Assembly (NCBI GenBank): GCA_903813345.2
Contig: CAIIXF020000007.1
Span: forward strand, 36,974,759-37,038,758
Direction of reading: 5' to 3'
DNA length: 64,000 bases
From: Owenia fusiformis
Taxonomy: Eukaryota; Annelida; Polychaeta; Sabellida; Oweniidae
Shown: piece after piece, positions 6,401 to 57,902 of the stretch
Layout of the letters: every line of letters begins with the position of its first letter
How positions within the stretch are numbered: position 1 is the first letter of the stretch
The notes under the pieces: model-generated
Database searches by the model: none
Seen by the model: the letters and a program-made list of their open reading frames with translations, nothing else
Told to the model about the DNA's origin: nothing
Position numbers and translations under genes: made by a program

Positions 6401-9400
6401 TCGGTTCCGTTGGAGGTACTGTTATCGATAAAGACAGTGTTGCTTTTGTTGAGGCAGGGATGGTGAAAGCACCATCCGAGCTGACGGTATAATTATCTGT
6501 AAATCGTGAAGAATGTGTTTATATTGATCAATATATTGGCCTATTATTGAAGGGAATTATGTGTGACTTGTGAGTTTAGAGAAATAAATAACTCAACTTT
6601 ATCTCTAAATGCATATAGTAGCATTCCTACTCTGAACAAAAGATGAAGTTAAGCAAATGTGGGATCCACTATACTTGTTTTAAAAACTACAATACCAGTC
6701 CCAATTTCTATTCATAAGTGCAATCACTTCGTAATATTACCTGATTCAGGTGAAAACGAGATGAGAGATATCAAAGGGTCACCACTTAGTTGAACTCTTA
6801 CATCAAGAGCGGAAATTATTCCTTCGTTACTAATATCAATCTACAATAAAACACATAAAAATAAAAAAATATTATGATTTATTACCAAAGTTGGAGTAAG
6901 CGAACCCGAGTACACCTTACGTTAAGTTGTTTATTGTTTATATATTATAATAAATGTCAAATATCTCGTTATGTTAATTGGTGAATTATTTAAAGAGTAT
7001 TTGTTTACCTCAAAAATCTTTTGCTCCCCTCTATTCACACTTGTAGAGAGGAAATTTGGGTTCGCTCTAAGCAAAGGTGTCCGAACATCGAGCCTTAGAT
7101 TTAACCAGTATATAGCAACTGTCCCAGACTGGGAACTAAATATAATGCCAATCCTCCCTCGTACAGACCCATTGGCATCTAATTCAATATCAAATGGCAT
7201 ACTTTGACCTCCATCTAGGTCAGACAAAAACAGTTTATCGCTGGTAGCGGTTCTATTACTGGGTTTTACAATAAGTCTTGTAAGTGGTGGTCCAAATCCT
7301 CTCAACTAAAACAGATATTGTATAACACTGCATTAACGTTTTTTGGATTTTTCAAATGATTTACACACTGAACTTGTAATGTTATTTTAAGTTATAAGTC
7401 AACTGAATAGCCAGAGTAAATGTATTGCTTTGTATTGCGCATACAAACATTGTATACCTGAACCGATATGTTGTATAGTGGCAGAGATCCAGTATTAACT
7501 AGCTGAGCAACTTTTGTCAAATTGCTATCATCTAAAAATCTTCTGTGATAGGCACTTGCAGGCTGCACTTGCATCCCCAGCACTGTCCATTGGGCTTGAT
7601 TAGTACACCTGTCTTCAGACGGGTGTTGAGCACCCTGTCATAAAATACATATGTAATTATATAGCAATAAATTGGAATCAATGTTAATTTGACAATGTGA
7701 ACTATGATTGCATTTACTTACAACTTCGAATAAGCCACTGTCTGCAGGGTTCGGGTAGTATACTGCTGCATAGCGCCCTCTATCTACTAGATCGGTAAGT
7801 GCTGGTATTTTACGAATTCTTCCTTTGTTCTTTACACTAATATCAAGCAGGGGTAAGGATATAGTTAATAAACAATTACAATTGTAATAAGTAATTGTAA
7901 TTGTAATTAAAACTTTGTCATAATTTTTCAATTCTTAAAACGTCAAGAGTAGATGTATAAGGGTTTGAATATCAAAAAGATCCTTAATGGAAGCCCTATT
8001 TGGTTTGTATTTCAATTTGTTAATTTTATAACTTCGGTAGCAATGAAGTATTTTATTTTCATTCCTGACTGATGTTATTTATTGTTTCTTTTTCACTTAG
8101 ATCATAATTTTCGATAATTGAGATAATTGTTTTTCATTTTGACTTTTAACTGCTTCCTTTTTATGATATAATGTTATTCATGTGTGATCTATCGCCTTTA
8201 TTTGATTGAAAGTATGACTGTTAATAACAAATTATTACCAAATGTGCACCAGCACTGTCCCTCTTTTATTTTCCCATTCCTCCTCAAAAAGGTCAACGTT
8301 TCCATAAATGTAGACTTCCGATGGTTGTGATAAGATACCACTGACAGACAATGACGTCACTGTGGCATTGTAGCTTAATGGGACGCTCAGCTTAAAGGTG
8401 TAGATATCCGAACCAATAACATTTTCTACGCGCATGCGAACGTCCTTAAGTAAAAAAGAAACATATAATAAAAACGTTGATGTATGCTTTCAAGATTCTA
8501 ACGGTTGAATATAATTACCTTATTACAAATATGATAGCAATTTAAAAGTATCAAAATGCGTAAGTAAAACTTAGCACATTTTTAAAATCAAGCAATGTTT
8601 ACATTCATTTGAATTAATATCATTATATTATTTATGTTAATATAATATCTATGTTAATATAATAATAAGTAAAGTATTCACAGAATATATATAACTTACA
8701 TAAGGTTCCTTCTGTGCCACAGTCCTAAGCCAAATCAATAAACCGGATCTTGGATCAAGAGACATTCCTGAAGGCCCATTCAGCAGCTGCCATGTTATTG
8801 GTCTAGTTCCCTACAATGATATCTACGTGATGAAATATTTGTAATTTACATATTTGTAATTTAACCATTGAAACTTTAAGAGCTTAATACAATTACTATA
8901 ATATATACTATACATTTATATGGAATGAATTTGCATATGTACTCTATGCATAATTTATACTTAATTATACCGTACCTGTTTTATATTCATTTGAGCTTCA
9001 TATCTCTTCCCTTCCCGGGCAGAGGTGAGATTAACCTCTTTAAAAAATGGCGCAATTACTATATCTTGACACGACTCTCCTTCCCAGGGTAGAATACATG
9101 AACATTGTCCAAACAAACATATTCCATGAGGTGGTGTTTCATTACGTCCACAAGCACTGCTTGGACATGTGGGGTGGTACTTGAATGTAACCTTAAATAA
9201 GGAATATGCCAGATTAATGGTAGAACACATGAACACTGTCCAAACAAGCGAATTCCATGAGGTGGTGTTTCATTTCGTCCACAGGCACTGCTTGGACATG
9301 TAGGGTGGTACTTGATTGTAACCTAAAATAAGGAACACGCCAGATTAATGGTAGAATACATGAACATTGTCCAAACAAACAAATCCCATGAGGTGGGTTT

Positions 9401-12400
9401 TCATTTCGTCCACAGGCACTGCTTGGACATGTAGGGTGGTACTTGAATGTAACCTAAAATAAGGAACACGCCAGATTAATGGTAGACTACATGTACATTG
9501 TCCAAACAAACAAATTCCATGAGGTTGGTTTTCATTTCGTCCACAGGCACTGATTGGACATGTAGGGTGGTACTTGAATTTAACCTTTAGAGAAAAATAA
9601 GCACAACGGTAGAGTTTTGAACGTTGTCAAAACATACCAATCCCATGAGCTGGTGTTTCATTTCAATCACAAGCACTGCTTGGGGATCTACATGTAGGGT
9701 GGTATTTGAATTTAGCATGGGCCTAGATGTGTATTTCAAAATATATTGATTTACTTGACAATTGATAACATCCTATAAGTTTATACATACTCTTTGGTTT
9801 GTCATTTCGTCTCCTGGTTTTCCTACATTTACAGGGACTTCGCCAACTTGCTTTGGACTAATACAACGCACTTGTTCACGTGACAGCCACTGACCAATCA
9901 CATCGATATCACCGAAACGACATCTATACAATCCATCACTACTGTTCTCAAAATTGTGCCCGATTACGTTGACCACAGTGCCACCTATGTCAGGTCCTGT
10001 TGACGGGGCAACAAGGAGAACTGTAGGAATGGGCAAACAATAAGGCCCGTAGAATGTTCTGTTGCACTCACTGCATAGCTCCCCGGCCCAATTTACTGAC
10101 GAACATGTACATCCACCTTAATTAAAGAAATATTATGATACATTACGCATTTAAACTAACATGTCTTTGACATCTTCATTTTCAAAATACCCCAAAAACG
10201 CCAGTGATTTTCTATAGATGTACGTTCATATGTGGACTTAAATTTAGTTGAATCAAATCACCTGACATCTCGTCACAGTATCCATTGACACATGGCGGGC
10301 ATGGCTCGCAATCCTGACCCCAATACAACTCTTGGCATTGTGAGCAGTCATTCCCCGCATAGGAAGAAAAACATGAACATGTGTCTGGTTGCAAACAGTA
10401 TCCTCTTTGTGAACAATTGTTCACATTGTAACATGTTGCATCTGCACAGGTCTCTCCAGTCCAACCCCCGGTGCATTCGCAAACATTTGGTCCAACACAG
10501 TTGCCATTACCATAGCAGTCAGAGACCTTTATATAAAAGTAGTATCAAAATTTCAACATTACGACATACTAGACAGATGTATGCCGTACACCCCGCGATT
10601 AAATAAATCCAACGGGATTCTTAGTTTTTCTGTCGTATTATGGTCATTCAAAAGGTTTTGCACAAAAGTTTCTCAAGAGATGAGATTTACTATGTTAACA
10701 TGCAATTTTATACACATAATAGTATCACCCTTCTTACAAGTACATATCAAATTTCAGGACCGTAAGCAAAGCATTTCCTACATTGACTTTAAAATTTGAA
10801 CAAATCGGCCCATTGTCCATATGACATCATGAAAATAAATTCATTTTCTTGATGCCTCGATAGACTGAAATGGTTTGGTCAATCTTTATTCGTTCAGCTG
10901 TTAGTCAGGTTATGGTGTAACTAATTTATATTTGATCTAAAGAAATAGTTCTTAATATGTAGTCTATCCCTTTCAGAAATGCATTATTTGTAGCTTTATG
11001 TCCAGTCTAAAGATTAATGTCTGAACCATCCTAGCTCTAGGATGTCAAGTCTTCTTATGACTGCAGCTATCCTCTGTCAATACATTTCTTTTTCTCTAAT
11101 TCCATCTAGGAATACTTAGCGATGCCTATTTTGCGTCATCATATGCAATGTCTTAATGCATGAATGAATATAACACTGTTTCCCCATATTTATTATGTAT
11201 TCTATCAATTGGTGTTTTCTGCTACAACTTTGTTATTTGGAGCCATATTCTACAGCATTGCATAAATCCATGAGAATTTTGATTACATCATAAAATCAGG
11301 TGATTTGTTGAATATGTTTGAAGAGTTAGTTCACAGTCATTCTTCTACATAATCAAAGAAATCAAGATTGGACATATTGATATAAAATTTATTTTTGCCA
11401 TGAGAACAATACTAATTATTGTTTTAAATTTAAGTAGACAGTTTTAGACAGTAAATTTAGCATGTTCAGTAATATTGTTCTTTATATGTTACAAGTTTTC
11501 CTTTTCAAAATGATATGGACCATTGCGTCATCACCCTGGTTACTATAGCAACCATAAATTATTAAGTAGTTGACGTATACGCATAAAACCCTAAGAGTGT
11601 AAGGAGATAAGATAGGGCCACAAACCTATAAAGTTTATACAAGATTGGTTCATTATTTATACAAATAGACATATTTGTGCAAAACTTTTTGATCAACCCT
11701 TTAAGATCGGTTCATTATTTATACAAATAGACATATTTGTGCAAAACTTTTTGAACAACCCTTTTAGAATTGAATAAGAGAGCAAGTCGGCTTTATGTAA
11801 GATATGCATTAGAACTATAAAATTGAGAGGTCCTGCTTTACCTGCTTACATGAGACTTGATTACATGTTGGCCCCTGCCAGCCATCAACACAGCGACATC
11901 TATCAGGTCTAACACATTCGCCATGGTTAGAACAGTTGTTCACAGCAAAGCATGTAAATACTTTTCCTGATAACATTGGAATGTAAACTACCTCTGCAGC
12001 ATTAAATGCATCTGCTTTATCAAATATGCGTTCATCTGCATATGCTTCTACAGCGCTTCCCCACCAGTTGTGCGTAGCGTTTATGATGTTATCACCATCA
12101 TATGCGACATAAAGCTCATAAACGCTTGAAGGGTTTTCTAGTATATTGTAATGCATCGAATAATTCCCCGACGTTGTCCTTATGATGCCTTGCGATGCAA
12201 CGTTGTCAGTGAATGCGTTATCAGTTAACGTTCCTCTATTATTCGCTATGTTATCTGGGTGTAGGTAAACCATCGTCAGGCCTTCGTTTCTCAAGAATTC
12301 ATTTCCGACAATGTGAACTTCACTTTTGACCCGTCTGTTATCATAACGATAATATATTGGATGTAAATCTATTAGATTTGACGACCCGCTATTATATTCT

Positions 12401-18400: not shown

Positions 18401-21400
18401 GGCCCAGAAAAAAATAAGGCCCAAAAGAATGTTGGGCCAAAAAATGCCTTATTTTTTAATTTCAGGCCAAATTTTAAAGTAAATGGGCCTCAAAATTTCA
18501 ATATTCTGGCCCACTTTCGGGTTTTAGGGGCCCAAAGTTTTTTTCTGACCTCCACTTTGCCCCCCCCCCTCCTTGTTGGTTCCCAGATCAGCCACTTTTT
18601 TATGATGTATAATAATATAAGAGTTTAGGACTTAATCACATAATTATTATGTTGCAGTAGTACAATCATCTACAGTGCCTTCTTAAATAATAGTGCATGA
18701 ATGGGTCACCTGAGTGAGTTTAGTATGAAATAATTAGTTAGAGAAGGATATGCATGAAGTAGAGTAGAGTGTAATATTTTAGAAAATATTTTGCCAAATA
18801 GACCTTTGAGATAAGTTGTGATTAATAAAGATGAAAGCATTGATTACAGCAACTCAATACTATATATTATTCTTTCACAATCCATTTAATTGTAAGTTCT
18901 TCTTTGACAATCAACCTCTTGTTAGATACTGTATAATTTTGGAATATCGTGGTATCTGCTCTTTGCTTTGATTCAATGCGCAAATTATATTTACCGGTCG
19001 TGATACTCATTCCAGCCCACTTGACGACAGATGTACGGGGTATGCATTGGATTTCTTTTTCTGCAGTTCCATTCATGTGGATTTCACCTAAATATAAATA
19101 CTTATAGTATATTATCAATACCTTGAAGCTATAAAAAGTCATTCTGGCCATCGTCAAATATAACCTCTAAATAAACACATAACGTTCGACAAAATTACAA
19201 CTCTATTATATTTGTATGTCCAGGTGTAAAAGGGTAGGTGGTCCTATCAAATTTTGGTCCTTCTCTGTATTGATTTATATGGTGACCTAATTACAATTAT
19301 TTTCCTTATTATTTATACACAGTCAGGGCCAGTAAGGGCCGCAAGGAAAGGGGACCATAATCCCCGGGGACCATAATTTCTTTTACACCGGGACATATCG
19401 AATCATTGAAGGGAGATCATAATTTATGCATGACTTACAATTAGTTTTACACGGGAACAAATTATGTTAAATTAACAAAGAATAAATGTGACACACTTAA
19501 AGCAGCTTAGTTGTACTTTTAACAAACGTTATTCAACAAGCTCACCTTCTACTCGAATACCAATGTTCTCGGCAAATTTAAGCACAACACATGGTTCAAT
19601 AAGCAAAGAAGCACCCTCCATAACCACAATGTCTGACACGACATCATATGGACTGTCATCACATCTAAGAGTTACGTTCCCCGTAATTTCTCCTCCAATA
19701 CTACCATCTTGTCGAAAAAAATCTTCTTCAATTGACACGTCTGAGAAATTGTGTGAAAGTAGAAACGGAAAAATGTCTAATACACCAACGGTTGGGTCTC
19801 TTTTGTTGTCATATATACTGGCCAATATTTGGGACTGCTCTTTACTGCCCCACCAGTTCAGCTTTGCATTTATATCAGGGTCGCCTTTTGAAGAGCTTAC
19901 CTAGACACACAAGCGTATACAAATACAACAATACTAGTATAGTGCATGATCAATAGAACAAAAAACGCATTGAATGCTATATATATTGAAAAGATAAAAA
20001 ATATAACATAAAATTAAAGGCATTTGATTCATGAGATGATGTAATGGTTCACCCCTTCGAGTTTTATGCTTCACTTAATTGCATAAGAACTCAGTGTTTG
20101 AATATCTATTCATATATGTTGAGTGAAACTTGTTTAATGTCATAACATGGACTTGCAAGTTAGAATTGAGACACTGAAGTAGTTACAGTCGAATTAGAAA
20201 TGTGCAATTTAGAACTAAGAAATATAAGTTTGATTTTAGATAAGAAAGTTATGTTTTATATATGTATTATCATGAGGTGTTAAGATACTTTTTAACATCT
20301 CTGCAATTCACAACAATATGATATAATGTACCTTAACATTATAATTAGGTTCTCCTTTAATGTTATCAAACAAGTTGTAGTTCAACGATGTACCCGACTG
20401 GACTCTTTGGAGGGTAAAGGCGTTGTTGCTGTTATTTAAGAAGATATTGTAGCTGATGGTACAATTGTTTCTTATGCTTGGATTGATGATGACATTGTCG
20501 CTTCCAAAGTTGTAGAGGAATCGATTATTCATAATTCTTGTGCCACTTGTGAGGTCACATGTCAGGGATAAAGCTCCATGACTCTCGGAGATTACGTTGC
20601 CAATGAAGTCAACGGTTCCAATTCCGGCTTTTAATCCGATAGCAAACGCTACACGACGCATTCTATGAATATCGTTCCCCTCTATCAAGATTGAAGAGAA
20701 ATAGTTAATATTTGATAGATCCATAGCAGATGTGCCCCTCGAACCTGTTGATCGAAATGTGTTGTTCACAATCGATATGTTGGAAGACTCTTCATAACCA
20801 GATCTTGAAGACTGTGTATTAATAGTAACCATTCCATGATTGTTGTATGAATTTTGTTCCATAAATGTATTATTATATATTGAAATAGTTCTAGATCCGT
20901 CATTGCTCCAAGGGGTGTAGTAATGTACACCATAGCCATGTCGGTTGATTGTTCTCTTCATCATACAGTCTCCGAGCTCAAATAAACCATGTTTTATGTA
21001 GGCATAAATAGCATAGGATGAATATTCCGAAATTTCACAACGACGAAGCTTGACATCTATGTGACCATTGTAGTGAATGTAGACACCATGACTGCCTATA
21101 TGTTGAATTGTTACATTTGTGAATCCAGAATATGCTTTGCTACTACCCCCTTCGATATACACAGCTCCACTACCATGTGTGTTACGAATAGCCACGGCCT
21201 TCATTGTTAAGTTGAACTCTCTCATGATAGAATTACTCGACGTTACAATGTAAATTCCAGTGTTTGACGATGTGTCGATCCTACTGTTAGTAACATCAAT
21301 GTTAAGGTATTTGGTTATGGTATCAGAGACATGTATGGCATAATCTGTGTTTATGATTGTTACACCTTTAAGACTAATGTTCCTGCCTTGGCCGTGAATA

Positions 21401-24400
21401 CCATATGTTGAACCATCAAGCTGAACATTATTGAGAAAGAGACCTTTAAGTAAGAAAATAAACAAGTTACAATTATTCTCAGAGAAAAAAAAGTAAACTT
21501 ATTTATGTTTAATAGTGAAAAACTGAAACAAGAATGAGTTAACGCTACATAGCTTACCAAGAGGTGACGGTGATCCGATGCGAATTCCTCCCCATTTGCC
21601 CGTGGGATTCATTCTTCTCATTGATATGTCACCATTGTCAGACTCTCCGATGAGCAGTTCACCTACATCAAATATTATGCATATTTATTTTATTATCTTT
21701 ATATTTTTATTATCTTGATCCATTTGTTGTGGATTTGGCAAAACGTAAATACCATATTTTACTAATATTATATATTGCATTTACAATTTTGGTTTATAAA
21801 ACTGATAGTTGATCGGAGGGGGATAAGTAGAAAATTTAATCACAGGGTAAAATTCAAATAATATAGACATATAAATGTTAATATACAGTACATTGGATTT
21901 GGAAAGGAATGACCTTGAGAATGAACCAATTTACTATTTTTGTTTCCAAAATCTTCAATGCAAAGTGAGAGGAACGCAAATCAGTTACCATAATGTTTCA
22001 TTTTTATCATGAATTATCTAATATTATCACACATTAAAGTGGCAACAAGGCATGTGGAGAGAAAACTTTGACATACCTATTTTTTAAAATGTTTGGATAA
22101 ACTATCAATTTCAGCATTAACAAGTGCAAATTCAGTTCAAAGCTTCTATAAAGGGAGTTCCACTTATAGATTCTTATTAAGACCCATCACGTTTTAATAA
22201 ATTGTGAATCAATATGGGTACATAAGAAGTAAGTATCACTTACCAATTAGATAAATTCCGATTCCCTTGCCAAAAGCCAGTTTAACCCCAGATTCTACAG
22301 TGAGAGTTGCATTTCGGCGTATAAAGATGTTGCGCCGAACGTGGTAGGTATGTTTGAAAACATATGGAATCGTTTTGTTGTTCAAGAGCACACCGCCGAT
22401 AGCACCCGTTGAATCAGTAAAGTAGAAATCGACTCCTTCATCTTCATTCAGTTCAGTCAGATTGCGGTCAGTGTAAAAAGGCGAGACAGTGACATGTGCA
22501 AGATCCATATTCCTACTGTTACCACATACTCTATGTTTCACATCACCTGGATCAGACGAGCCCCAATAGGAATATGGGACATTAACGATTAAAGCTGTTT
22601 TAGATACCGAAACATATAATGCACACTGATCAACGCTTTTGAATTGTTCAAAAGAATTGTTTGCTATTATGAAATTGTCCGTGTCTATCCATAACCAAGG
22701 GGATGCAGCAATGTTTGTAAATTTGTTTCTGAAAATATGGAATCTTCCATTATTATTCGAACTGGTTAACTGAACATCAATGTACCGACTATCAGCTCTG
22801 TTGTTTTCCATTGTATTGTCTTCTAAAAATACGTTTGTATTATGGTAGGCCCTAACCAACATTGATTTGAAGCAGTTGGTGAAGACATTATTTGTTATTG
22901 TAATATTCAACTCAGACTGTTTATAGTTTTTCTCTATTTGCAACGAAGGGTATGAGGTTGCAATGTCCTTGAACACGTTTCTATCAATATGTATTTCGTC
23001 TCCATCAAAGGTGTTGGGGTACAAATATACAGCAAGGTATTCGCGACCGCTGCTTTCTCCCACAAAAGAATTGTTAATCAGTAGAAAACGACCTCCTCTA
23101 TAATTGTTATCCGAGTAATAATATATGGTGTAATAGTAGTTATGTTTCATTTTTGTTGATTCAATTGTGGTATTCCCACTCATTCTGTAAATATAGAGCC
23201 CATTATTTCTATTTCTCAGGATTTCTGCCCTGTGTATTTTGATATTCCCCACGGTTTGATACGTTTCTAAACCCCTTTTAGCATTGTGTGACAACTCCGA
23301 ATCCTCGATGGAGATATTTGCGTGTGTGTCTCTGCAATATATGCCGGAGCTTTTACTTCCCGTTATAATAGTCCGAGTGATAGATAGAAACGGATGGACA
23401 GGACTCCCTTTAAATTCAATACCATGCCCGCCATTATTTCCTATGTATGAATCAGATATCATTGTTGAGTTGGCGAATGATCCCCCGTCGGTGTATTTGA
23501 TCCCGGCTGAGCATTTTGTGATGGTCACGTGATCTAGAGTTACGGAGTAGCCTGTTGCTTGGATACCCACACGCGCTCCTTCTACATAAGCATATTGTAG
23601 TAAGGAATCTACAGAGAGAAAGGATATAGAAAATTGATGTATGCGTTTAAGATTTTAATATAATATTAAAATATATTGATTTTCGTATTAAAAACTTGTA
23701 AATTACTTAGTAGTACTCCGAGCGGAATTTATTTTTTGTTAATTACTATTCTAAGTAAACACTAATTAGAATATAATGCAAAACTTACCACCAGAGACAA
23801 ATATTAGTCCAGTCCAATGCGATGAAATTTCAGACACGGCATCATCAGCCGTGAACTCAACAGGAAGATTGTCGATCCCTTGAGCTAAAAGATTACCTGA
23901 AATATAATTTGTACTGTAGTACACATATCGCGTATCAGAACATATCGCCACTAATAGGGATGTTTCAGCTATTCGGAATCTGAAAGTGAGCTTTACGGGG
24001 AAAGTGAAAGTCAGATTTCAGGGGTCATGTCATAAGTTCAGTTGCATTAAACTTTTATTATAACTGATAAATCAATAGTTTCAAAGCTAAAAACATCAAT
24101 GTGCTTTTTAGAGAATAAAGCAACATTAAAATAATTTCAAGATGCTTTTATTTGTTATTCGCTGTGGATTACATTTATTAGAAATATGACACAAAGTATA
24201 TTCTCTTGTACTGAATATTACATGTATTGATAGAACAGTTGATTGAGCAGTTTAAGCAGTCTCAAAGAGATTAACCCTCCTTATACTAAGATTGACACAC
24301 AATTCTGTGAGCTTTGCCAGATGTTGTCGTGGGTGGCGAAAAAGTGTACTTATAACCTTAAAAACCTTGATGTGACCAATCACATGCTCTACATAACTCC

Positions 24401-27400
24401 GCCTACTCCAAATTTTTCTGTTTAGCCGCTTACACTTTTTTTACGTAAATTTAGGGGTTTTCCGCGTATTTCAGAACTTTTATACTTCCTAAGGAGTGGG
24501 TATCGACATGGATATATTTTATCAGCTAAGAGTCTACAGTCTCCAGGGTATACTAAAGGTCCCCCGGGCCCAATATTTGCCATATAGCCAAATGTTTGTG
24601 CATCATTCATATGACCTAATAAGCCACTATGGACATAACGAAGGTCATTGCTATTATCTACAATTAGTTGGGTATGCATACAATGGTATCCTCTATTTCC
24701 AGATTAAAAAAGTGCTTGGGGTTCATTTTCTGGCCTGTCAATTTCATGGGATGTTCCATCAATAGAGCCAATTGCAAATGGGAGATCATTCCAATTATTC
24801 CTCATTGCATTCCATTCTTCAAGAGATGGCCAACTACATTGGATGCATATAGTTCCCATAATATTGGCCAAACGTCATTAATGACTCGTGACACAGTTGT
24901 AATGCTAACATCGAACATCAGGGAGAGTAGAGGATAACAAGGGTACTATCTCAGGCAGATCAATGTGAGGAGTAGTCTATTGTGAGGTGACATGTTATGT
25001 CGCATACCAAAAGTTCTAGGCAGAAAAGTACCAACCATCTCATGAAACGTATTAACTGTTTCATCAACAGTTTCAAAAAACTCATATGGGTATTTTTCAA
25101 ATAATCCAAGGACATCTCGTCCTTGCCAATTGTTGTTATCTGCACCCAATCTGTTACGAAAATTTAACATAGGATCTGGAGGAGGCGCCAATAAAAACAA
25201 TAGGGTTGGAATTATCTCACTTTGAAGGCCTTCTGGTGGTGGTGCAGCTAGAAACATAAGCAATGCAACTAATGCATGCTTCTCTCTTAGGCTCAAAGTG
25301 TATGCATACCCAAGTAATAGTAGATAATAACAATGACCTTCGTTATGTCCATAGTGGCTTATTAGGTCATATGAATGATGCACAAACATTTGGCTAACAG
25401 AAAAATTGGGAGTAGGCGGAGTTATGTAGAGCATGTGATTGGTCACATCATTTGTATGTATGTATATTTTTTCGCCACCCACGACAACATCTGGCAAAGC
25501 TCACAGAATTGTGTGCCGGTCTTAGTATAAGGAGGGTTAATCTCTTTGAGACTACTTAAACTGCTCAATCAACTGTTCTATCAATACATGTAATATTCAG
25601 TAAAAGAGAATATACTTTGTGTCATATTTCTAATAAATGTAATCCACAGCGAATAAAAAATGAAAGCATCTTGAAATTATTCTAATGTTGCTATATTCTC
25701 TAAAAAGCACATTGATGTTTTTAGCTTTGAAACTATTGATTTATCAGTTAAAATAAACGTTTAATGCAACTGAACTTATGACATGACCCCTGAAATCTGA
25801 CTTTCACTTTCCCTGTAAAGCTCACTTTCAGATTCCGAATAGCTGAAACATCCCTATTACAGAAACCAAATACACAGAAATACTACATAAAGTTATATCA
25901 TGCGTACCATGCACATCAAAACCAGCTTCAGCTGTTGTAAATATTACTTTGACGCCTGGTTGAATTGTAAGAGTTCCTCCTGGTCTAATGGCAACTAGTC
26001 TTGACACAATATACGGACTGAGATGTAAGAATAGGACTTCCTCATCCTATAAAGTGTAAGTACAAGCATAAACATCAAATCCAGAACATAATATCCGACT
26101 ATGATTTTTAAAATGATATATTTAATGATCATTGATTATACTCAAATACTAGGACATCCGAATGTAGAATAAAATAAAAAGCATATTGACAAATTAAACT
26201 AATGAAAAGATTCGTAATTGCTACTTCAATTGAGTTGTTTATTCATGAAAATCTTTTAATGAGCATTTTTATAATTCTAAATAAGTTTCATATTACAGTC
26301 ATTTATTAGAACTAAGTATAACCACTTACCAAAATATCGTCGTCGATAGGCGTGTATTCTCTTTCGGATTCTGCTTTTTGACAGCCATAAAGTTCCATTC
26401 GTATTCCAGGGCGACTATTCCACGTTATGGGAAGTATGCGAACATACCGTGCCTTTAAATACAGCCGTTCATATTTTGAAATTGAGGCCTATTTTATTAG
26501 ATAATATGGCATTAATTTGCTGATATTTCACGTATTTATTGTGCCATTATTAACGGGTTTGCAGATAATAGAGAGGTTTCGCAAAACGATTTTTAGCTCA
26601 ACGGATCCGTAGCCGTAACGTATTTACCAGATTTATGCGTAGTCAGCTCAATTTATACGTGAAGCGATACGTAAAACACGAAAAATGAGGCTTTTCTACG
26701 TTGGTCATTTACGTATCCCATTTATCCTTCGATTATACTGATTTTAGTTCTAAAGGTATCACTTTATGAACAAGCACAGTGTGTTGTGTATAATTTGACT
26801 TCTTGGTGAATGAATTTGTTTATTGTTTGACATAAATCGAGTTTTTCAAATGGTATGTTCAATTCATTTTACACTGTATGGAATGGTATCGCAATAATTA
26901 CAGTGTAAATGTTTCGCACAACGTTTTAGCTACCCGTAACAAACTCCGTAACGTATCGATGAAGAAAAAGTGTATTCAATACGTTTGTCTAACCGACAGC
27001 AATACCGAAAGTACGTAAACTAACGCTTTCTGTGCGTTTTGTGTCCGTATCTATTTTGTCCTTCAAATCTTGATAATTTTTTCCCAAAATGTATAATTTT
27101 AGTAACCTACATGTGTTATCATGTATATCGTGCTAATTTTGATGAAGTAATAGGCTTATCTGTCGATAAATTTGATTATTAGTGGGTGGCCTGCAATTTT
27201 TACGAATAAAGCTTTGTCATATTTGTTGGTAGGCAGCCGTACGGTCTATAATTTCTAGGGTCAATAGTAATACCGTGGTCGATTTCTTAGGGACATCAAA
27301 CCAGTGGTTAGCAGCTAGGCCACCTGAATTTATACTTTGTGCCTCAAGTCACGCTCTAAATCCATATGAATTTATACTTTGTGCCTCAAGTCACGCTCTA

Positions 27401-30400: not shown

Positions 30401-33400
30401 GTATTTTTACATTCACCAATAATAATTATGGAATTGTGATTCTGAAAGCTGACACTCTCAATGGTGTATTGAAATGTTAGTGCAGATGAATTATTTGTTT
30501 GACCCTAGTTTTCACTACTATTAAAGACGGATTGAGATGCGTAATATATAATTACGTACTTCAAAAAACGAACTGCGAAACGAAAATTATCGAAATACGT
30601 TTCCGTAAACGTAACGAGATACGGATGCGGATACGTTTTAGCTAACCCGTTGTGCGAAACCTCTCTAGTAAGAGACAGTTCCGTACTTATTGTATTTCAA
30701 TTCGCTTAACAAATTTTTCTTCTCTACACAACATTTATTTTGAAAACACAGAACGTTTTGGATCACAACAAAAATAATACGATGAACAGGGATCAGGGGA
30801 ATTATAAATTGGTGGGAATTTGGAATGAATTATTCGGGAATTAATATGACGTTATATTTGTATTTACTTTATTGTTTTGTAGCGCTTCAGTTCAGTTTTG
30901 TTACAGTTGATAAAAAAAAACCAGATGTAATCCGAAACGTTCTGTGTTTTCAAAATAAAGGTTGTGTAAAGAAGAAAATTTGTTCTAGTGATTTAATAAT
31001 CCAACCTGACGAACATGTTTAAGTGTATTTTATTGTTTGAACCCTGGAGAATAAAGGAACTGGATGCATCACACTACTTACTTCTATATTATCGGTAAAA
31101 TCCACAATGGCAACATCGTGCCCATTGCTGTTCCCCTGTTGAGTTTCCCTTTTATTGTAGTACAACCAATTGGTTCCATCTACACTGTAAAGAATTTGGA
31201 ATGTTTTCACCCAATAGGAATGCCCCGGAGCATACCCCTGTAGCGCCATCTTTGTTAATTTATGTGGTTGTAGCAGATCAAGTTGTAGCCAGGGTGTACT
31301 CGAACCATGGCTATACCATCCATCTAGATTCATAGAAAAAGTAACCATTACAGTGGCGAAGCCAGGATCTCTCAGGGGGGTTCTAATATTTTATGCCACA
31401 TTTTTCTGGAGCCCGCTAAAGATGAATTTGGTGAAAAAATCCCAAATTTGCTGATATTTTTATGATAAGAAGTAAGACTATATGTAAGTATATTTCGTTA
31501 TATATATTTACCATATTATTTATTCATTATTATATGCAATTAATATATTTTATTGTAAAGATCTTGCTGCTGTTACTTGATTAATGGCTGTTTAGACCTC
31601 AGTTACCTTACTATGGGAGATTCTCTGCGCTACAATCTTGAGACAGAATGATTAAGTATATATCGATGTAATTATGGCATGCAGTTGCTTGCAACAACCA
31701 ATCATAACTCAGGATTACAATTTGAATCTTGCTTACATAAACATCTTATCAGCAATATGCCTACTTATATTTGCACAATAAAATAATACATTTTATCTGG
31801 TGTACAAGGAACACAGCAATATCTGTTTATTCAGTAAGTTTTACTCACTAACCACAATGCTAAACATTGGGTTATAGAAGGAATAAACCTCGCGAGTACC
31901 GAACGGCCACAAGATCCCAATGAATCAAATCATAAAATTATGATTCGCAACAATCACCATAACAGCCCAAGCGAATCGTAACAAAAGTATTATAGCTAGA
32001 GCATGGGACTGGACAGTACAGGTAATGGGATAGGTGTCATGCCTAAGGTCGGAAACATGATTGCCACAAACATATTGGTATTCTGTCAAATGCAAAAAAT
32101 GGAACTAGCTTTTCAAAGTTGATAGCAGAGAGATAAAAGTTACTGCAAATAGCAGCCAGGCAACTGTGAATTTCAAACTGACAAGTATTAGCTTGGATTC
32201 GCGAATGCAAATATCGGCTAGCGGCTACGGGATTAACCTTTTTTGTGATCAACTCGTTTAAATTTGAATGGAATAGTGGCAAGTACGATACATATGTTTA
32301 AATGAGTTGCCAATAAAAGAGTAAGTTAATCCGGTAGCCGACAGGCGTTAGTTGCATTCATGAATACAAGGTTAGCCAACCTAGCCATATAATTAGTTTA
32401 ACTGGGATCCTAAAATGCTCATGATATGTTGAGTTTCGATAATAACAAGTGTATTGGTCTGACTTATATAATAGTGTAATTTAGATGCAAGACAAATGCA
32501 CTTAATAGTTAAGAATTATTTTAAACTTACTATTCTGGTTAAATCTTGGAAGACCACTCGAGGAAGATGAATAAGCGACCTGTCCATTGCTCAATATACT
32601 CCTGGTCAATGGCAAACTGCAGTCTGAAACAAAATATAATTGAGTCATTAAACCAATGCATCATATGCTTAATATACTCCTTGTCAATGGCAAACTGCAG
32701 TCTGAAACAAAATAGAATAGAGTCATTAAACGAATGCAGCATATGCTTAATATACGCCTGGTCAATGGCAAACTGCAGTCTGAAACAAAATATAATCGAG
32801 TCATTAAACGAATACACCATATGCTTAATATACTCCTGGTCATTGACAAACTGCAGTCTGAAGCAAAATATAATTGAGTCATTAAACGAATGCAGTATAT
32901 GCTTAATATACTCCTTGTCAATGGCAAACTGCAGTCTGAAGCAAAATATAACTGAGTCATTAAACGAATGGCTTAATATACTCCTAGTCATTGGCAAACT
33001 GCAGTCTGAAACAAAATAGAATTGAGTCATTAAACGAATGCATCATATGCTTAATATACTCCTTGTCAATGGCAAACTGCAGTCTGAAACAAAATAGAAT
33101 TGAGTCATTAAACGAATGCAGCATATGCTTAATATACTCATAGTCAATGGCAAACTGTAGTCTGAAGCAAAATATAATTGAGTCATTAAACGAATGGCTT
33201 AATATACTCCTAGTCATTGGCAAACTGCAGTCTGAAACAAAATATAATTGAGTCATTAAACGAATGGCTTAATATACTCCTAGTCATAAGCAAACTGCAG
33301 TCTGAAACAAAATAGAATTGAGTCATTAAACGAATGCATCATATGCTTAATATACTCCTTGTCAATGGCAAACTGCAGTCTGAATTAAAATAGAATTGAG

Positions 33401-36001
33401 TCATTAAACGAATGCATCATATGCTTAATATACTCCTTGTCAATGACAAACTGCAGTCTGAAACAAAATAGAATTGAGTAATTAAACGAATGCATCATAT
33501 GCTTAATATACTCCTTGTCAATGGCAAACTGCAGCCTGAAACAAAATAGAATTGAGTCATTAAACGAATGGCTTAATATACTCCTAGTCATAAGCAAACT
33601 GCAGTATGAAACAAAATAGAATTGAGTCATTAAACGAATGCAGCATATGCCTAATATACTCCTAGTCATTGGCAAACTGCAGTCTGAAACAAAATATAAT
33701 TGAGTCATTAAACGAATGCAGCATATGCTTAATATACTCATAGTCAATGATAAACGACAGTCTGAAACAAAATATAAGGGCAGTATACGAATAATGAATA
33801 ATGTGCTCATTTACTCCTGCTCAATGGTAAACTGCAGTCTAAAATAAAATAAAACGCCAGTTTACGAATGTATCATATGCTTAATATATTCCTATTGAAA
33901 CGTAAACTGCAGTCTAAATAAAAAAAGACAATATGTTAATGCGTCTTGTTTTTGGTTTGATCAGTGGAGAATAAAATATGTTTGTGCGTAGAAGTGCTTT
34001 TGAATTGAAAAAAGATTAAGTATAGAAAACTACAATTTATTATGATAAAACAATTCGTAATCAGGACAATCATATTAAAAAGAAACACACTTCATGACTT
34101 ACAGTTTAAAAAGAAAATTTTTTCCCCGTAAACACCTTGAAACCTTAGCCTATTTCCAAAAATTAGACATATAATGTATGAGCATCAATTAAGTTTAATT
34201 GTTTACACGAACGAGATTAAATGTTTTGTTAAAATAAATTTGTCAATGGTGAGTTCCTCCTTGGACAAAATCACTGCTTTAAAATACAGATCATTGCAAA
34301 ATGACTGCTATAAAACAAAACTTACTGTCATCGGGTGTGAATTTCCAAGTTCCATTGACACCATTTGTAGTACCAACAGCAAACGAAGTGATGTATTCAG
34401 GACTGCTATCTTGCCATTCTACCAGCGGATCGATCCCTAATTCACGACCTTTTCCAAGAGCAATGTTTCCTATGAAAAGAAACACAATTAAATACCAGTA
34501 CATTTCATCTTCAAGTACAATGCTTGATTATTGTAAAAATGATAACCAAATATAATGTGGGCTAACTGAATTTAACATCAAAAATAAATTGTTTCATCTC
34601 ACCATCTGTCCATCCGATCCACAGAGACACAGATTCATTGCATTTCAGAAGACCTTCAGTCAGTGATCCAGCTCTATCACATCTTCCTCTACAATCTCGA
34701 ATCACAGACTTTGTGTTTGACCATCCTGATATCAAGATCTCGTACATTCGAGAGTTGGTATCTCCAAAAATGGCTGACAATACGACATGTGCCGATTCAC
34801 ATGCCTGGACTTGGAATACAAGTCCAAGCTTACCAGTTAGATCTATTTGGTGAATAGGTTTGTAGATTGTATAATTTGTAACAATGGTGAGCGTCTCTTG
34901 AGTACCTACAAGATAAATCTTAATTATCATATGCATATACATTCTCCATTTGAGCCCAGAATAATACGTTTTACCATATTGACTTGGGCAGTCTTCATAT
35001 ATTTCTTTGCCATAGATTTCTCATTTGATTTGGACATTACACTGGTGCCTGATGGACCAACTGTCTACCATCTCTAAGAAGGGGAACCCCAGAATTCATA
35101 GATGAAACTATAGATGCTCCTCTTTAGATAGAGATGAGTTTATCTATGAATCCTGTGATATTTCCCCTCTTAATAATCATTATCAGATTATCATTATATT
35201 TATTCACAATTACTTCAACCGCATACAGAGTGACCCAAAATGGCAACCCTGTTGGATATAGTAGATATTAGGAAATTACAAAATCGTTAAAAATAAAGTC
35301 CCAAATTTTGTATTCGTAAATGTCTCAGTCAAATACAAGATAAACAAAAATTATTTTATTGTGGCCTCGCTATTCCAAAACGGGATGTGAACAGGTTAAA
35401 TCATTGATGATATGCATCAAGGAAATACTGAATCGATCCATAATTAAATACAATAGGATATATTGACCCTTATTCATGTACTTTCATTGCAAAATAATTT
35501 GGAAGTCGTAGGAAGTCGGCCTAGACGAAAATATTTATACAATTGCACATATTGTCATGTAATATTATATATACATGTTATGTTATATTATTATTTTATT
35601 TTATTAGATTTAATAACAGGCAAAACAGTTGTTTTGATTGTTTTTTGCAACAAAGCTTTGGTAAACACGTGCGTGTGGTAAACATAAATACAATATATAG
35701 GGTGAGTGTAAAACACCCTTTTTCTATTTTGCAAACATTGCTTATAATGCATGGATTTCAATTTTATTTTTGCAGAAAATGGAATGATCTAGTATACAGT
35801 TGATCACAAAATGGCATGATAATATCTAGTCATCGTTCATTTCATGATATAGATTGAATTAATGTATATACTTCCTTTACAATGCTAACTTACCTGGTTG
35901 TGCATTAATCAGGTGTTGACTATGCACAAATAACATAAGTAGAAGCCATCGAAATTCGGCTGCCATTGTTCAATTACATGTTCATCCGGTGGATCATTCC
36001 A
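430..36001 (-). CDS. Giant Bark-beetle/Anakonda-like multidomain extracellular protein (38 coding exons, 3' end uncertain)
   Basis: I joined exons by GT-AG sites, reading phase and domain continuity. Coding exons, 5' to 3': 35966-35894, 34905-34603, 34469-34326, 32623-32531, 31323-31082, 26452-26330, 26046-25908, 23896-23789, 23608-22244, 21662-21558, 21443-20332, 19900-19546, 19087-18995, 18317-18171, 18055-16507, 16112-16039, 15754-15650, 13879-13622, 13130-11842, 10526-10262, 10116-9791, 9191-8976, 8810-8700, 8444-8239, 7836-7722, 7634-7458, 7305-7009, 6840-6741, 6496-6173, 5891-5677, 5555-5388, 5168-4904, 4600-4411, 4250-4087, 3931-3844, 3608-3432, 1038-753, 561-487. The sum is 11,442 nt, exactly 3,814 codons, with no internal stop. 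A signal peptide and only extracellular-type domains point to a secreted or membrane-attached adhesion protein. Drosophila Bark (Anakonda) shares beta-helix and SRCR domains and acts at tricellular septate junctions; that role is inferred here from family resemblance only. Least certain joins are exon 24/25, exon 35/36 and the 3' end. Confidence 0.85.
487..1038 (-). CDS. Exons 37-38: helical C-terminal region, possibly not the last exons
   Basis: Exon 37 (1038-753) encodes about 95 mostly helical, acidic residues (LWYQEFEESISDNSD, then EETMKKFTEEHHK) and ends in phase 0 before GTAAGC. Exon 38 (561-487) gives RGFDNVFAEFDNAYVAVRD and ends KFENQK before a GTAATA site. If that donor is used, the gene continues off the left edge. 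If it is not, the frame runs 18 more codons to a TAA at 432-430. No clear minus-strand AATAAA signal was seen before the window edge. Confidence 0.6.
1506..1911. mobile_element. Palindromic foldback MITE in intron 36
   Basis: Ends are ACGCGGTCCTAAC and GTTAGGACCGCGT. The two ~200-bp arms are imperfect inverted copies that meet at GAAGGCCTTC, centred exactly at 1708/1709. It can fold into one hairpin. Confidence 0.9.
2194..2696. mobile_element. 503-bp MITE with 41-bp terminal inverted repeats
   Basis: The left arm 2194-2234 (CGCAGGTTTTACCGTAC...) and the right arm 2656-2696 (...TACGGTAAAACCTGCG) are inverted copies. No coding capacity is seen. Confidence 0.8.
2987..3176. mobile_element. 190-bp MITE with CCTGTTACACAGGCC ends
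   Basis: It has terminal inverted repeats CCTGTTACACAGGCC and GGCCTGTGTAACAGG, with internal AACGAAGC/GCTTCGTT words repeated in both orientations. A related, decayed fragment starts at 1071 (CCTGTTACAC followed by the same AACGAAGC words to about 1200). Confidence 0.85.
3432..5168 (-). CDS. Exons 32-36: basic and glycine-rich C-terminal region
   Basis: Exons 5168-4904, 4600-4411, 4250-4087, 3931-3844 and 3608-3432 encode residues 3400-3693. Exon 32 finishes a beta-sandwich, then has RQKR, a hydrophobic cysteine-containing stretch and a glycine run (CGGGGWGPGGGGGGYIG) that continues across the junction (GGGRGPG). Cysteines pair around SCDCAKKLILDC. Polybasic stretches KRKRR and RPKRKKR (exon 34) and RKRR (exon 36) look like proprotein-convertase sites. 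The exon 35/36 join (GTATGT donor, phase 2) is chosen because it continues the open frame; reading on from exon 35 would hit a stop at 3819. Confidence 0.65.
5388..7836 (-). CDS. Exons 25-31: series of CARDB-like beta-sandwich domains
   Basis: Exons 7836-7722, 7634-7458, 7305-7009, 6840-6741, 6496-6173, 5891-5677 and 5555-5388 encode residues 2934-3399. The sequence is rich in beta strands with N-x-G turns (VAQLVNTGSLPLYNISVQ, IDISNEGIISALDVRVQ, IVFTITNHGLIRAQNL), as in CARDB/DUF11-like adhesion domains. The stretch EEAYYNLEVSADRHTSY, then FETE-VPMPVVTIEP, is a conserved-looking block that I recall from large invertebrate Bark-like proteins. No catalytic motif is visible. All joins keep frame. 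Confidence 0.75.
8239..8810 (-). CDS. Exons 23-24: cadherin/Ig-like (He_PIG-type) domain
   Basis: Exons 8810-8700 and 8444-8239 encode residues 2829-2933. The segment ITWQLLNGPSGMSLD-PRSGLLIWLRT, followed by PYDVRMRVEN and DIYTFKLSVP, matches the dystroglycan/cadherin-like putative Ig fold (W-x-L...P-x-GM...G-x-I-x-W). The second exon continues with strands up to GTVLVHI. The join into exon 25 is phase 2 and creates a cysteine; it is the least certain splice in this part. Confidence 0.75.
8976..9191 (-). CDS. Exon 22: cysteine-rich EGF-like exon
   Basis: Residues 2757-2828, phase 0 on both sides. It starts with VTFKYHPTCPSSACGRN, then TPPHGICLFGQCSC and PWEGESCQD, an EGF-like CxxGxCxFGxCxC pattern. 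Directly upstream on the coding strand lie three more copies of the acceptor and the first ~85 coding bases (9192-9715). Only the copy at 9191 continues into a full exon with a GTACGG donor at 8975. Confidence 0.82.
9187..9720 (-). repeat. Tandem array of 131-bp units carrying exon-22 splice acceptors
   Basis: Exon-start equivalents are at 9191 (genuine), 9322, 9453 and 9584, exactly 131 bp apart, with a decayed partial copy near 9715. Each unit holds a TTATTTTAG-type acceptor plus about 85 bases of exon 22 (to the FGQCSC codons) and then returns to intron-like sequence. The copies lack the exon's donor. Confidence 0.95.
9791..10526 (-). CDS. Exons 20-21: EGF/laminin-type repeats and IPT/TIG domain
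   Basis: Exon 20 (10526-10262) encodes cysteine-rich EGF-like repeats (DCYGNGNCVGPNVCEC, CYNVNNCSQRGYC and CPPCVNGYC among others). Exon 21 (10116-9791) finishes them (CTCSSVNWAGELCSEC) and enters an IPT/TIG immunoglobulin-like domain: PIPTVLLVAPSTGPDIGGT, VNVIGHNF, YRCRFGD, VRCISPKQVGEVPVNVG. The range is residues 2560-2756. TIG domains occur in plexins, Met and large invertebrate adhesion proteins. The last codon AGA precedes a GTATGT donor (phase 0). Confidence 0.87.
11641..11765. repeat. 62-bp tandem duplication in intron 19
   Basis: GGTTCATTATTTATACAAAT recurs at 11647 and 11709, with matching flanks. The remainder of intron 19 (10527-11841) has no recognisable feature. Confidence 0.85.
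11842..13130 (-). CDS. Exon 19: fourth beta-helix block and first EGF-like repeat
   Basis: Residues 2129-2559. It opens with ESDSSVVNHVNITGSKYG and continues with about 370 residues of Asn-rich beta-helix coils. A short NATHNWWGS turn follows, of the kind that closes such helices in this family. It ends with an EGF-like repeat (CFAVNNCSNHGECVRPDRC, then RCVDGWQGPTC). The exon ends in CAG before GTAAAG at 11841, giving phase 0 into the next EGF exon. A competing GTAAGC donor 10 nt earlier would shift the frame. Confidence 0.87.
13622..13879 (-). CDS. Exon 18: PAN/Apple-like domain
   Basis: Residues 2043-2129. The pattern CKNGTRF, then WYCIHRCRTATFGCKSIEY, then GRCQLSDKSR is that of PAN/Apple domains, which bind proteins or carbohydrates. 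The exon enters in phase 1 at a TTTCAG acceptor. It must leave in phase 1, which selects a GTGGGT donor at 13621. The alternative GTAAAA donor four bases downstream would put exon 19 out of frame. One domain per exon fits modular exon shuffling. Confidence 0.8.
14515..15341. mobile_element. Foldback element with 140-bp inverted arms in intron 17
   Basis: The arm 14515-14654 (ends CAGTGATTTTTTTTAT... to ...GCCAAACACGAC) is repeated inverted at 15202-15341. The ~550-bp loop contains a direct repeat (AATACAATTTAGCAGTTTC twice near 14886 and 14932) and a dense CACGTG cluster. Confidence 0.85.
15040..15130. promoter_or_regulatory. Cluster of four CACGTG E-boxes and two TGACACGTCA-type motifs
   Basis: CACGTG occurs at 15093, 15105, 15112 and 15123, with two GACACGTCATT repeats just before (15041-15064). 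The words are bHLH-ZIP (E-box) and CREB/ATF-like binding sites. Activity is not shown by the sequence. Confidence 0.45.
15650..17884 (-). CDS. Exons 15-17: third beta-helix block
   Basis: The bulk of exon 15 (to 16507), exon 16 (16112-16039) and exon 17 (15754-15650) encode residues of about 1525-2043. They show Asn-rich beta-helix coils (for example LTDNTYGAVYSS and NNTLYENTGVALYME), a bacterial-like FERNYWGLRN turn, and the same capping motif as the earlier blocks (YYVKRSIYIR, then GASLTLRAGVHLKFPG, then GIIVEG). The joins are phase 2, 1 and 1. The cap plus following strand (WEGIIFQ) mirrors the segment that follows the other helices, so the block is a repeat of one ancestral module. Confidence 0.87.
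17885..19087 (-). CDS. Exons 13-15 (start): linker and SRCR domain
   Basis: Exon 13 (19087-18995) is a linker that continues the beta-helix cap. Exon 14 (18317-18171) and the first ~170 nt of exon 15 (18055-17885) form a scavenger receptor cysteine-rich domain, residues of about 1420-1524. It starts at GGIRLVGDTASGRLEVFYNG, followed by WGSVCND, AKVACRHLG, IWLDNIACGGSE, LFECRHNG and HNCGHGEDVGITC. Six cysteines are seen, as in group A SRCR domains. Drosophila Bark also combines an SRCR domain with beta-helix repeats. Confidence 0.9.
18362..18600. repeat. Dispersed repeat copy (pyrimidine-tract-bounded GGGCC family) in intron 13
   Basis: A C-run at about 18377 and another near 18560 flank sequence related to the GCCCGTAGCCAG family (AATTTTAA, CATTTTCGG-type interior). 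It accounts for most of the 677-bp intron 13; the rest shows nothing. Confidence 0.5.
19546..26046 (-). CDS. Exons 7-12: two parallel beta-helix blocks of Bark-beetle type
   Basis: Exons 26046-25908, 23896-23789, 23608-22244, 21662-21558, 21443-20332 and 19900-19546 encode residues 327-1387. The two long exons carry serial Asn-rich coils (patterns such as NNxF, NNTF, ENNT, RNxF) with alternating hydrophobic positions, the signature of right-handed parallel beta-helices (pectate-lyase-like fold, without a recognisable enzyme active site). Each helix is capped by a recurring motif: PY-hydrophobic strand, then ATLT(V/I)-x-x-GVKL-x-F, then GI-x-V-x-G-x-L. Many NxS/T sites suggest glycosylation. 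Joins are phase 1 except the last (phase 0). Confidence 0.87.
23952..25859. mobile_element. PIF/Harbinger-like foldback transposon, decayed, in intron 7
   Basis: The ends are long inverted repeats (TAATAGGGATGTTTCAG at the left, CTGAAACATCCCTATTA at the right) that match for several hundred bases. A TA dinucleotide could be part of the target duplication. On the minus strand between about 25150 and 24430 there are pieces of a DDE_Tnp_4-type transposase in shifting frames: an HTH-like TTVSRVINDVW, then IGSIDGT, then LIVDNSNDLRYV and LLADKIYPC. Part of this gene (about 24590-24690) is also present inverted at 25305-25390, so the right arm carries a copied fragment. Stops and frameshifts show it is not functional. 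Confidence 0.8.
26330..32623 (-). CDS. Exons 4-6: F5/8 type C (discoidin) domain
   Basis: Exons 32623-32531, 31323-31082 and 26452-26330 encode residues 174-326. The domain opens with NCSLPLTRSILSNGQ, followed by a serine run (AYSSSSS). It then shows GWYSHGSSTPWLQLDLL, the VKTFQILYSVDGTNW strand and the closing ARYVRILPITWNSRPGIRM-ELYGC motif. Opening and closing cysteines are present. The fold usually binds phospholipid head groups or sugars at the cell surface. The phases (1, then 1, then 0) join without a frameshift. Exon 4 begins inside the last unit of a tandem repeat array, and intron 5 is 4.6 kb because of transposons. Confidence 0.88.
27326..27409. repeat. 42-bp tandem duplication
   Basis: Two nearly identical copies begin at 27326 and 27368, each starting GAATTTATACTTTGTGCCTC. 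Confidence 0.9.
27487..27615. repeat. GCCCGTAGCCAG-family MITE fragment
   Basis: CCCGTATCCAGCTTTTGCCA followed by TTTTGGCTAAAAGAACTC, then AGTGCTCAGGATGATC and GCCAGGGGAGC matches the copy at 59646 over more than 100 bp. Confidence 0.65.
28280..29360 (+). repeat. G/T-rich degenerate GGTTGTG repeat tract
   Basis: About 1.1 kb of plus-strand sequence is made of loosely repeated GGTTGTG, ATTGTGTT and TGGTTGTGCC words with strong G+T strand bias. Open frames here are by-products of the low complexity. Confidence 0.75.
30708..30984. mobile_element. 277-bp foldback MITE in intron 5
   Basis: The left arm (AACAAATTTTTCTTCTCTAC, then a 40-base continuation) is the reverse complement of the right arm ending at 30984, including the shared AAAACACAGAACGTTT. 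It sits about 40 bp from the right end of the 4.1-kb element. Confidence 0.8.
32590..33935 (-). repeat. Tandem array of 18 units (70-78 bp) carrying exon-4 splice acceptors
   Basis: The unit on the minus strand runs TTAATGACTCAAT, pyrimidine-rich stretch, TTTCAG, then ACTGCAGTTTGCCATTGAC, i.e. a branch-like site, polypyrimidine tract, acceptor and the first ~38 bases of exon 4. Exon-start equivalents fall at 32623 (genuine), 32701, 32779, 32857, 32935, 33005, 33083, 33161, 33231, 33301, 33379, 33457, 33535, 33605, 33683, 33761, 33838 and 33913. Spacing is 78 or 70 bp, with 77 and 75 at the outer edge. The acceptor AG is kept in all but the 33605 copy. Only the first unit is followed by the rest of the exon and a donor. 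Confidence 0.95.
34326..34905 (-). CDS. Exons 2-3: Methyltransf_FA (farnesoic acid O-methyltransferase-type) domain
   Basis: These exons (34905-34603 and 34469-34326) cover residues of about 25-173. Recognisable segments are the VQACESAHVVLS strand, the YEILISGWSNTKSVIRD stretch, and the WIGWTDG and GTWKF motifs near the end, all typical of PF12248. The family name comes from a crustacean enzyme. In large extracellular proteins the domain is normally a non-catalytic module, so no methyltransferase activity is claimed. Both splice joins are phase 1 and keep the frame. Confidence 0.8.
35083..35170. repeat. Short hairpin MITE in intron 1
   Basis: GATTCATAGAT-type arms (AATTCATAGATGAAACT and AGTTTATCTATGAATC) lie about 35 bp apart, bordered by GGGGAA and TTCCCC. 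The rest of intron 1 (34906-35893) has no recognised feature. Confidence 0.6.
35894..36001 (-). CDS. Exon 1: end of 5' leader, start codon and signal peptide of the giant protein
   Basis: The ATG is at 35966-35964, preceded by AACA. The first 22 or so residues (MAAEFRWLLLMLFVHS...) have a basic residue followed by a leucine-rich core and end in a small-residue site, a typical signal peptide. The coding part is 73 nt and ends in phase 1 before a GTAAGT donor at 35893-35888. A polypyrimidine tract and CAG directly upstream, with exon start at 36001, indicate a 3' splice site inside the 5' UTR. At least one non-coding leader exon should therefore lie further upstream (see 36738-39230). Confidence 0.85.
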
Positions 36002-55460: not shown

Positions 55461-55475
55461 TTTTGTAATTTTTCT
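55461..55475 (-). promoter_or_regulatory. 5' UTR segment after a likely leader-intron acceptor of the laccase gene
   Basis: On the minus strand TTATTACATTTCCAG precedes 15 nt of A-rich leader and the ATG at 55460. This looks like a 3' splice site and implies an upstream non-coding exon that I could not locate. It argues against using either upstream in-frame ATG (55535 or 55508). Confidence 0.5.
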
Positions 55476-56545
55476 CTGGAAATGTAATAAATTATATAAA
55501 CTATTCATGATAGTGAAATGAATACAAAAGTGCAATATTTACCCGTTTCTCTTACATAGCGCATCTTTTCAATAATTTAACTTAGAATGATTAGAACGAA
55601 AACTTATTTCATCTCGACTCAGTTATATTGATACGATACGATTGAACATGTATGTAATGAATATGGTAAAATAAATAGATTTTAATCATTCAAAATACTT
55701 AGGCCTTTGACATACTGCCTCATTTCATTATCTAGAAAGAATTACTTTGAACTGATATGAACTGAACAAGATCCAGAGCCGTTTTCCAAAATAGCCTATT
55801 AAAATGGGGAAAGCCTTTTCTTATCTAAAAAGCATACATCTTTAAGACTACGGTTAAAATATACAAACTGGCTCTTTAAGGTCGTCCTTTTCATATTTTG
55901 TTACATTTGATGTTCTCATTTGTATTAGATTTTCATAGTTCATATACTTAACAGGTCCACGGGGTGCAAGCGAACCCCCTGGCCATAATTATTTCAAAGT
56001 CATGCAGTTTACACCATTGTGAGCACTTTTAAAATGATTTGGGTAAAGAGGGTAAAAATGTGACCCCCACACTGGAAACTGTTGAAAGGTGATCTCCCTT
56101 GTCACCATTGACAAAAGCTGGCTATGGGCTTATTCAAATCCATTATCTTAAAAGTAAAAATTGTGTCTTAGACAAAACATATGACCTGAGCGGGATTGGG
56201 GTTCTGGTCGGGTGAAATTCCTTGAGCGAATGAATTGTCTTATCAACAAAAGAGATACAAATGAAATGTCAGTTTTAAGAGTTTTCCATTACTTTCTCTC
56301 TTCATGTTAATTTTCAGTCCTGGATCAAATTTTCAACTTTTCAAAATTTTATCAACTCAAATTCGAAAATTCGATTGGCTTCTATACTTCAGGAAAATCC
56401 ACATTTTGTATTCTGATACGAATTTCTTCATTTTTAAATTTCTTATATTAATGAACATGGATTGCACTTGTTCACCCATTGAACTGTTACATACTTAGCT
56501 TTGAAATTGATAATTATAAAATTAGCCTCTCAATCGTACACCCCA

Positions 56546-57310: not shown

Positions 57311-57902
57311 AGTAGGGCTAGAATAAACGACTTTTTAGGATGATATTCTATTTTATTGACAAAATCGCATTTAATGGTATTGGTAAACTCTTGATGCATT
57401 GTTTTACGATCATGTCACGTGACGTGAAAAACTTATTGTGGAGTTGAAATCAGTTTTGCCGCAAAAAAAACAGGTACGTGACTTTGACTAGTCGAAATAT
57501 GTGTATTCAGCCCTGTACATGTCATGTATCATAAGTTTACGCCTCTGTTCGATGGAAGAACCTCCACCTTTGTTTAAATAATATACAGTATCGACTCATC
57601 CTTGTATGAGTTATTGAATGATTTGAAGTGCAATACAGGATATATTCTGCTCGAGAAATTCTGTATTGGAACGAGACGAAGTCGAGTGCACATACAGATT
57701 ATCGAGAGCAGAATATATCTGATTAAGGAGCAATCTCAGTAGCAATACAGATTGACACAGCAAAAGGATTGACTATTCAGAGCGCTTTATTTTACAGATC
57801 ATACGATAATTTAACGATATAAAGACACACTCGGTGATATTGTTACGGCGAATACATAACTTGAATGAGTTAACTTATCCAGTTTTATCATCGATTACAG
57901 TC

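Follow-up and report, generated by a model that had tools for sequence, protein, structure and literature searches.

A mirage-type array of 17 extra acceptor copies in front of a discoidin exon, probably a tolerated minisatellite

How does the spliceosome find the correct 3′ splice site when one intron offers many near-identical candidates, and do the extra sites serve any purpose? This question is raised by a locus in the window analysed here (the whole stretch of 64,000 nucleotides), for which an initial annotation had proposed that an exon of a discoidin domain is preceded by 17 additional acceptors, an array that could be a tolerated minisatellite or could regulate productive splicing. The domains recognised on the minus strand (Methyltransf_FA, F5/8 type C, beta-helix, SRCR, PAN, and EGF) suggest that the window is animal-like.

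The host gene and its array

Exons 2 to 5 of the gene model join in one open frame, and Pfam matched their product to Methyltransf_FA (E 1.6e-22) and then to F5/8 type C (E 2.9e-15). The features of the locus are as follows.

34326..34469, minus strand: exon 3, end of the Methyltransf_FA domain (open frame, Pfam, splice signals)
32624..33923, minus strand: mirage-type array with 17 additional copies of the 3′ end of intron 3, each followed by about 36 nt of exon 4
32531..32623, minus strand: genuine exon 4, 93 nt, first part of the discoidin domain
31082..31323, minus strand: exon 5, discoidin domain continued (Pfam PF00754)

The exon 3 donor (gtaagt) begins at 34325, and the genuine acceptor AG stands at the end of the array, with 32623 as the first exon base. 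TRF reported a 78-bp period in 17.6 copies at 32588-33923 (86% matches, score 1767). Each unit comprises about 42 nt of intron and about 36 nt of exon, thus straddling the 3′ boundary of intron 3, and the first ~36 nt of exon 4 constitute the last array copy. Read on the minus strand, the extra acceptor-like sites end at 33914, 33839, 33762, 33684, 33606, 33536, 33458, 33380, 33302, 33232, 33162, 33084, 33006, 32936, 32858, 32780, and 32702, and the genuine site ends at 32624. TRF and this reading together bear out the 17 extra acceptors before exon 4; the AG is kept in 16 of them, the sole exception being 33606, which has AT. The spacings between copies (78 bp in 11 of 17, 70 in four, 77 in one, and 75 in one) agree with the 70 to 78 bp given in the initial annotation. 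Its claim that every unit repeats part of the exon also stood, with a length nearer 36 nt than the ~38 coding bases proposed, and the 78-bp units are indeed in frame with one another, whereas four units, 8 bp short of this length, throw the frame off. The copies at 33684 and 33232 match the genuine site perfectly, both in the 30 nt leading up to and including the AG and in the next 14 nt.

The in-frame continuation of exon 4 into the discoidin domain speaks against an origin of that exon from the array, as opposed to the reverse. The Pfam discoidin match begins after the array-shared residues. Alignments to solved discoidin domains start at query residues 10 to 44 in the 60 rows listed out of 62; the five best begin at 12 or 13. 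They therefore include no more than the final few residues shared with the array. When viral contigs were searched for a relative of the host gene, one pattern match was obtained and none was confirmed.

Signals, frames, and constraint among the copies

Splice signals were scored with an acceptor matrix from the 23 model acceptors of the window, and the 21 model donors served as the donor comparison set. Since these sites were partly picked by an earlier rough score, the absolute values are biased, and the comparison among copies is less affected. The genuine acceptor scored 2.34 on this matrix; four of the 16 AG-bearing copies scored higher, two equal, and 10 lower. Its value of 2.3 lies below those of all 23 model acceptors (2.7 to 11.0), a set partly selected by score, and on a rough general matrix it reached 4.9, an ordinary value. 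These data indicated that local signals do not single out the genuine acceptor, so that the right choice is not guaranteed, a point against a neutral array.

The donors gave a different picture. Around the 18 acceptors, the best GT within 78 nt scored −0.3 versus 2.4 to 8.1 for the 21 model donors; a usable donor in each unit, as expected of a self-contained cassette exon, was thus not found. Because the unit donors are this weak, none of the units resembles a self-standing exon, and the 93-nt exon is made by the last copy only. By the same comparison, a 24-nt micro-exon running from the acceptor to a GT within the unit is unlikely; that GT scored −1.8 to −7.3 in 11 of the 18 copies, those in which it was among the two best. 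The exon that would end at the exon 4 donor measures 93 nt from the genuine acceptor, 171 nt from the next copy, and 1383 nt from the farthest.

For the frame test, exon 3 was joined in turn to all 18 sites, and the frame was followed as far as exon 5. The genuine acceptor reads through into exon 5, and every one of the 17 upstream acceptors runs into a premature stop, either in the array or in exon 4, if the downstream array is retained. The proposal that an upstream acceptor would truncate the protein was thus upheld, provided that the array behind the chosen site stays in the mRNA, and so was the placing of a stop in the unit beside the genuine exon: an in-frame ATATGATGC stop lies there at 32663. 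Units of type ATATGCTGC stay open, the 78-bp units corresponding to 26 codons.

Such a uniform outcome is one point in favor of a regulatory array, in which upstream acceptors would compete with the genuine one, a fraction of transcripts would pass to nonsense-mediated decay (NMD), and copy number would set the output of the gene. The six of 16 AG-bearing copies that locally equal or exceed the genuine acceptor speak for it as well, and the upstream copies would be transcribed first. We nevertheless regard such regulation as unlikely: stops would be expected anyway in unconstrained AT-rich sequence, and neither the AG nor the polypyrimidine tract shows clear constraint among the copies.

The constraint test used 14 core units and left out the three 5′-most ones (U01 to U03). 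Per site, the exon-derived part showed 0.050 changes, the polypyrimidine part 0.071, the two upstream segments of intron 0.036 and 0.024, and the CAG 0.024 (one change); by codon position, there were 10, 5, and 10 changes at positions 1, 2, and 3. The numbers are small, and within this limit neither selection on codons nor preferential conservation of the AG is clearly visible among the copies. All three 5′-most copies still carry the AG despite decayed flanks, which could hint at retention and is compatible with chance as well. RNA folding of four of the 17 units gave structures not clearly more stable than those of shuffled sequences (z −0.73 to 0.90), which argues, for these units, against a regulatory array and leaves an RNA structure that hides the copies unsupported. 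A variant of the regulatory reading, a copy-number-dependent rheostat in which the 16 competing upstream acceptors, each leading to a premature stop, lower productive splicing and array length tunes expression between individuals or cells, appears quite improbable to us.

Comparison of the units with one another revealed a block pattern that fits unequal exchange. U01 to U03 differ from the 14 core units at 6 to 25 positions, and the core units differ among themselves at 0 to 9. U08 and U12 are the only identical pair among the 17 full units; U05/U09 and U10/U13 differ by one change each. These relations also bear on an assembly artefact, by which the copy number of a shorter or longer array would have been inflated or collapsed. 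Tandem repeats are prone to misassembly, and the haplotype-1 mirage of the lancelet gene BflGb6 appeared, in the text available of that report, aberrantly assembled in the draft genome (PMC3087553). Against this, the copies here vary blockwise in length and at many sites of their sequence, with a single identical pair among the 17 full units, and a second array with a different unit exists in the window; we thus consider an artefact very unlikely, with the exact copy number still uncertain.

A second array and published mirages

The second array lies before an exon with an EGF-like match.

9192..9716, minus strand: second mirage-type array, four extra copies of a 131-bp unit in which the acceptor is followed by about 104 nt from the EGF exon
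8976..9191, minus strand: genuine exon with the EGF-like match, 216 nt, following the second array

TRF found 4.6 copies of 131 bp, the whole array including the exon part covering ~9088-9716, and the exon genuinely starts at 9191. Its EGF-like match (E ~1e-4) is below Pfam's curated cut-offs. At the matching position, three of the four extra copies carry AG and scored 6.28, 3.16, and 3.16, all above the genuine acceptor (2.04), and the use of any of the three would be followed by a stop in the frame of the genuine exon. The 5′-most copy is the most decayed (79% identity versus 90 to 91%). Random placement under an approximate 28-exon model overlapped an acceptor with a chance of 0.18 for the length of the first array and 0.12 for that of the second, so that the coincidence of arrays and acceptors is only mildly surprising. 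Placement onto donors gave nearly the same values, and the joint chance of both overlaps is ~0.02 before allowing for the choice of the two highest-scoring arrays. We thus treat the coincidence as weak evidence.

The EGF exon belongs to a minus-strand region (8961-18489, probably extending beyond both ends) with beta-helix, SRCR, PAN, and EGF frames, which are probably parts of one large multi-domain gene and which we take to resemble bark beetle/Anakonda proteins. Elsewhere, the window holds a multicopper oxidase (laccase-like) frame whose 692 codons are not split by any intron (53460-55538), an inverted pair of 476 bp with 94.5% identity (23952-24427 and 25392-25859), and two long self-complementary palindromes (1505-1912, 83% over 408 aligned positions; 57896-58396, 80% over 514), possibly short inverted-repeat transposons. 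Further minisatellites lie at 60664-60950 (74 bp in 3.9 copies) and 62203-62401 (35-47 bp), and a nonsystematic reading of their flanking sequence recognized no exon around them. Scans of the window with Rfam (gathering scores) and for tRNAs returned no match.

Tandem minisatellite-like repeats across intron-exon boundaries have been described in lancelets as "mirages" (PMC3087553, PMC3902484). As far as the available text of these reports goes, the amphioxus cases (Adh3, BflGb6, BflGb9, TnC, and PGBD5) share tandem boundary copies of which the one adjoining the exon is genuine, splice signals in many and not all units (PMC3087553), and a center more homogeneous than the edges; for BflGb6, the cluster edges are stated to escape homogenization (PMC3087553). 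The same anatomy was found here. Both repeats are minisatellite-like (78 bp in 17.6 copies; 131 bp in 4.6), their units span the boundary with a terminal copy that is the real exon, the splice dinucleotide occurs in many and not all extra copies (16/17 and 3/4), and a homogenized center is flanked by divergent edge units in both. With 17 extra copies, the first array is larger than the mirage of BflGb6, which has 6 and 3 units in two haplotypes (PMC3087553) and is the sole case with counts in the text available. A further difference from the amphioxus mirages is that two arrays lie within one window here and are known from one sequence alone.

The lancelet reports also bear on function. RT-PCR of the globin and Adh3 mirages suggested no interference with regular splicing (PMC3087553), and the Adh and TnC mirages are reported to yield no aberrant mRNAs, the same being inferred for the PGBD5 repeats (PMC3902484); in the portions available, these statements argue against a regulatory array. 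In the other direction points the Caenorhabditis elegans repeat CeRep25B, an intronic minisatellite proposed to affect splicing and, according to the accessible part of the report, statistically linked to multiple splicing decisions (PMC4039745). Unlike the units described here, CeRep25B is a 24-base palindromic repeat present in many places and not an exon-boundary copy. Internal tandem repeats of human segmental duplications, as far as that source is available (PMC2812944), resemble our arrays in touching genes and can activate cryptic splice sites, but they lie within exons, whereas here the unit straddles the acceptor and a coding change is only potential. Among the titles and abstract openings of the matches listed, in a search with subscription papers mostly outside its scope, boundary minisatellites were found for lancelets only (PMC3087553, PMC3902484, in the text available).

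A mirage model of intron gain, proposed for lancelet globins in the accessible part of one report (PMC3087553), raises the thought that the array might serve as a source of new exons or introns, parts of units being occasionally exonised. The 26-codon length of the 78-bp units and the read-through of the ATATGCTGC type would suit this reading, which we hold to be highly improbable: none of the 17 upstream acceptors gives an open product at present, and no unit has a good donor.

A probably tolerated array and what it may mean

Between the two options of the initial annotation, the first is favored by the lack of clear constraint, the absence of unusual RNA structure in the folded units, and the lancelet precedent. 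We consider it likely that the array is a tolerated mirage-type minisatellite whose genuine acceptor is picked because it stands beside the donor; by analogy with the lancelet cases, we place it as a large example within a known kind that is probably neutral.

The following course would account for the anatomy, frames, stops, weak donors, and copy relations, all of which were established directly. A tandem duplication of a segment across the 3′ boundary of intron 3 would have started the minisatellite, and unequal exchange, together with the duplication of blocks, would then have expanded it to 17 extra copies. Since the copy nearest the exon still is the true start of exon 4, the protein would be unchanged as long as the spliceosome takes that copy. 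Exon definition probably acts as the selector, since only the last copy has a 5′ splice site as near (93 nt) as is normal for exons. If an upstream copy were used, the transcript would carry a stop and would presumably be removed by NMD.

The locus thus offers a natural competition test, in which many near-identical acceptors stand in one intron and the local sequence is unable to discriminate between them, and it may bear on the shares of exon definition, distance, and transcription order in acceptor choice. The presence of two arrays in one window suggests that boundary minisatellites may be common in certain animal genomes. Should the host not be a lancelet, the range of mirages would be wider than that found in the literature.
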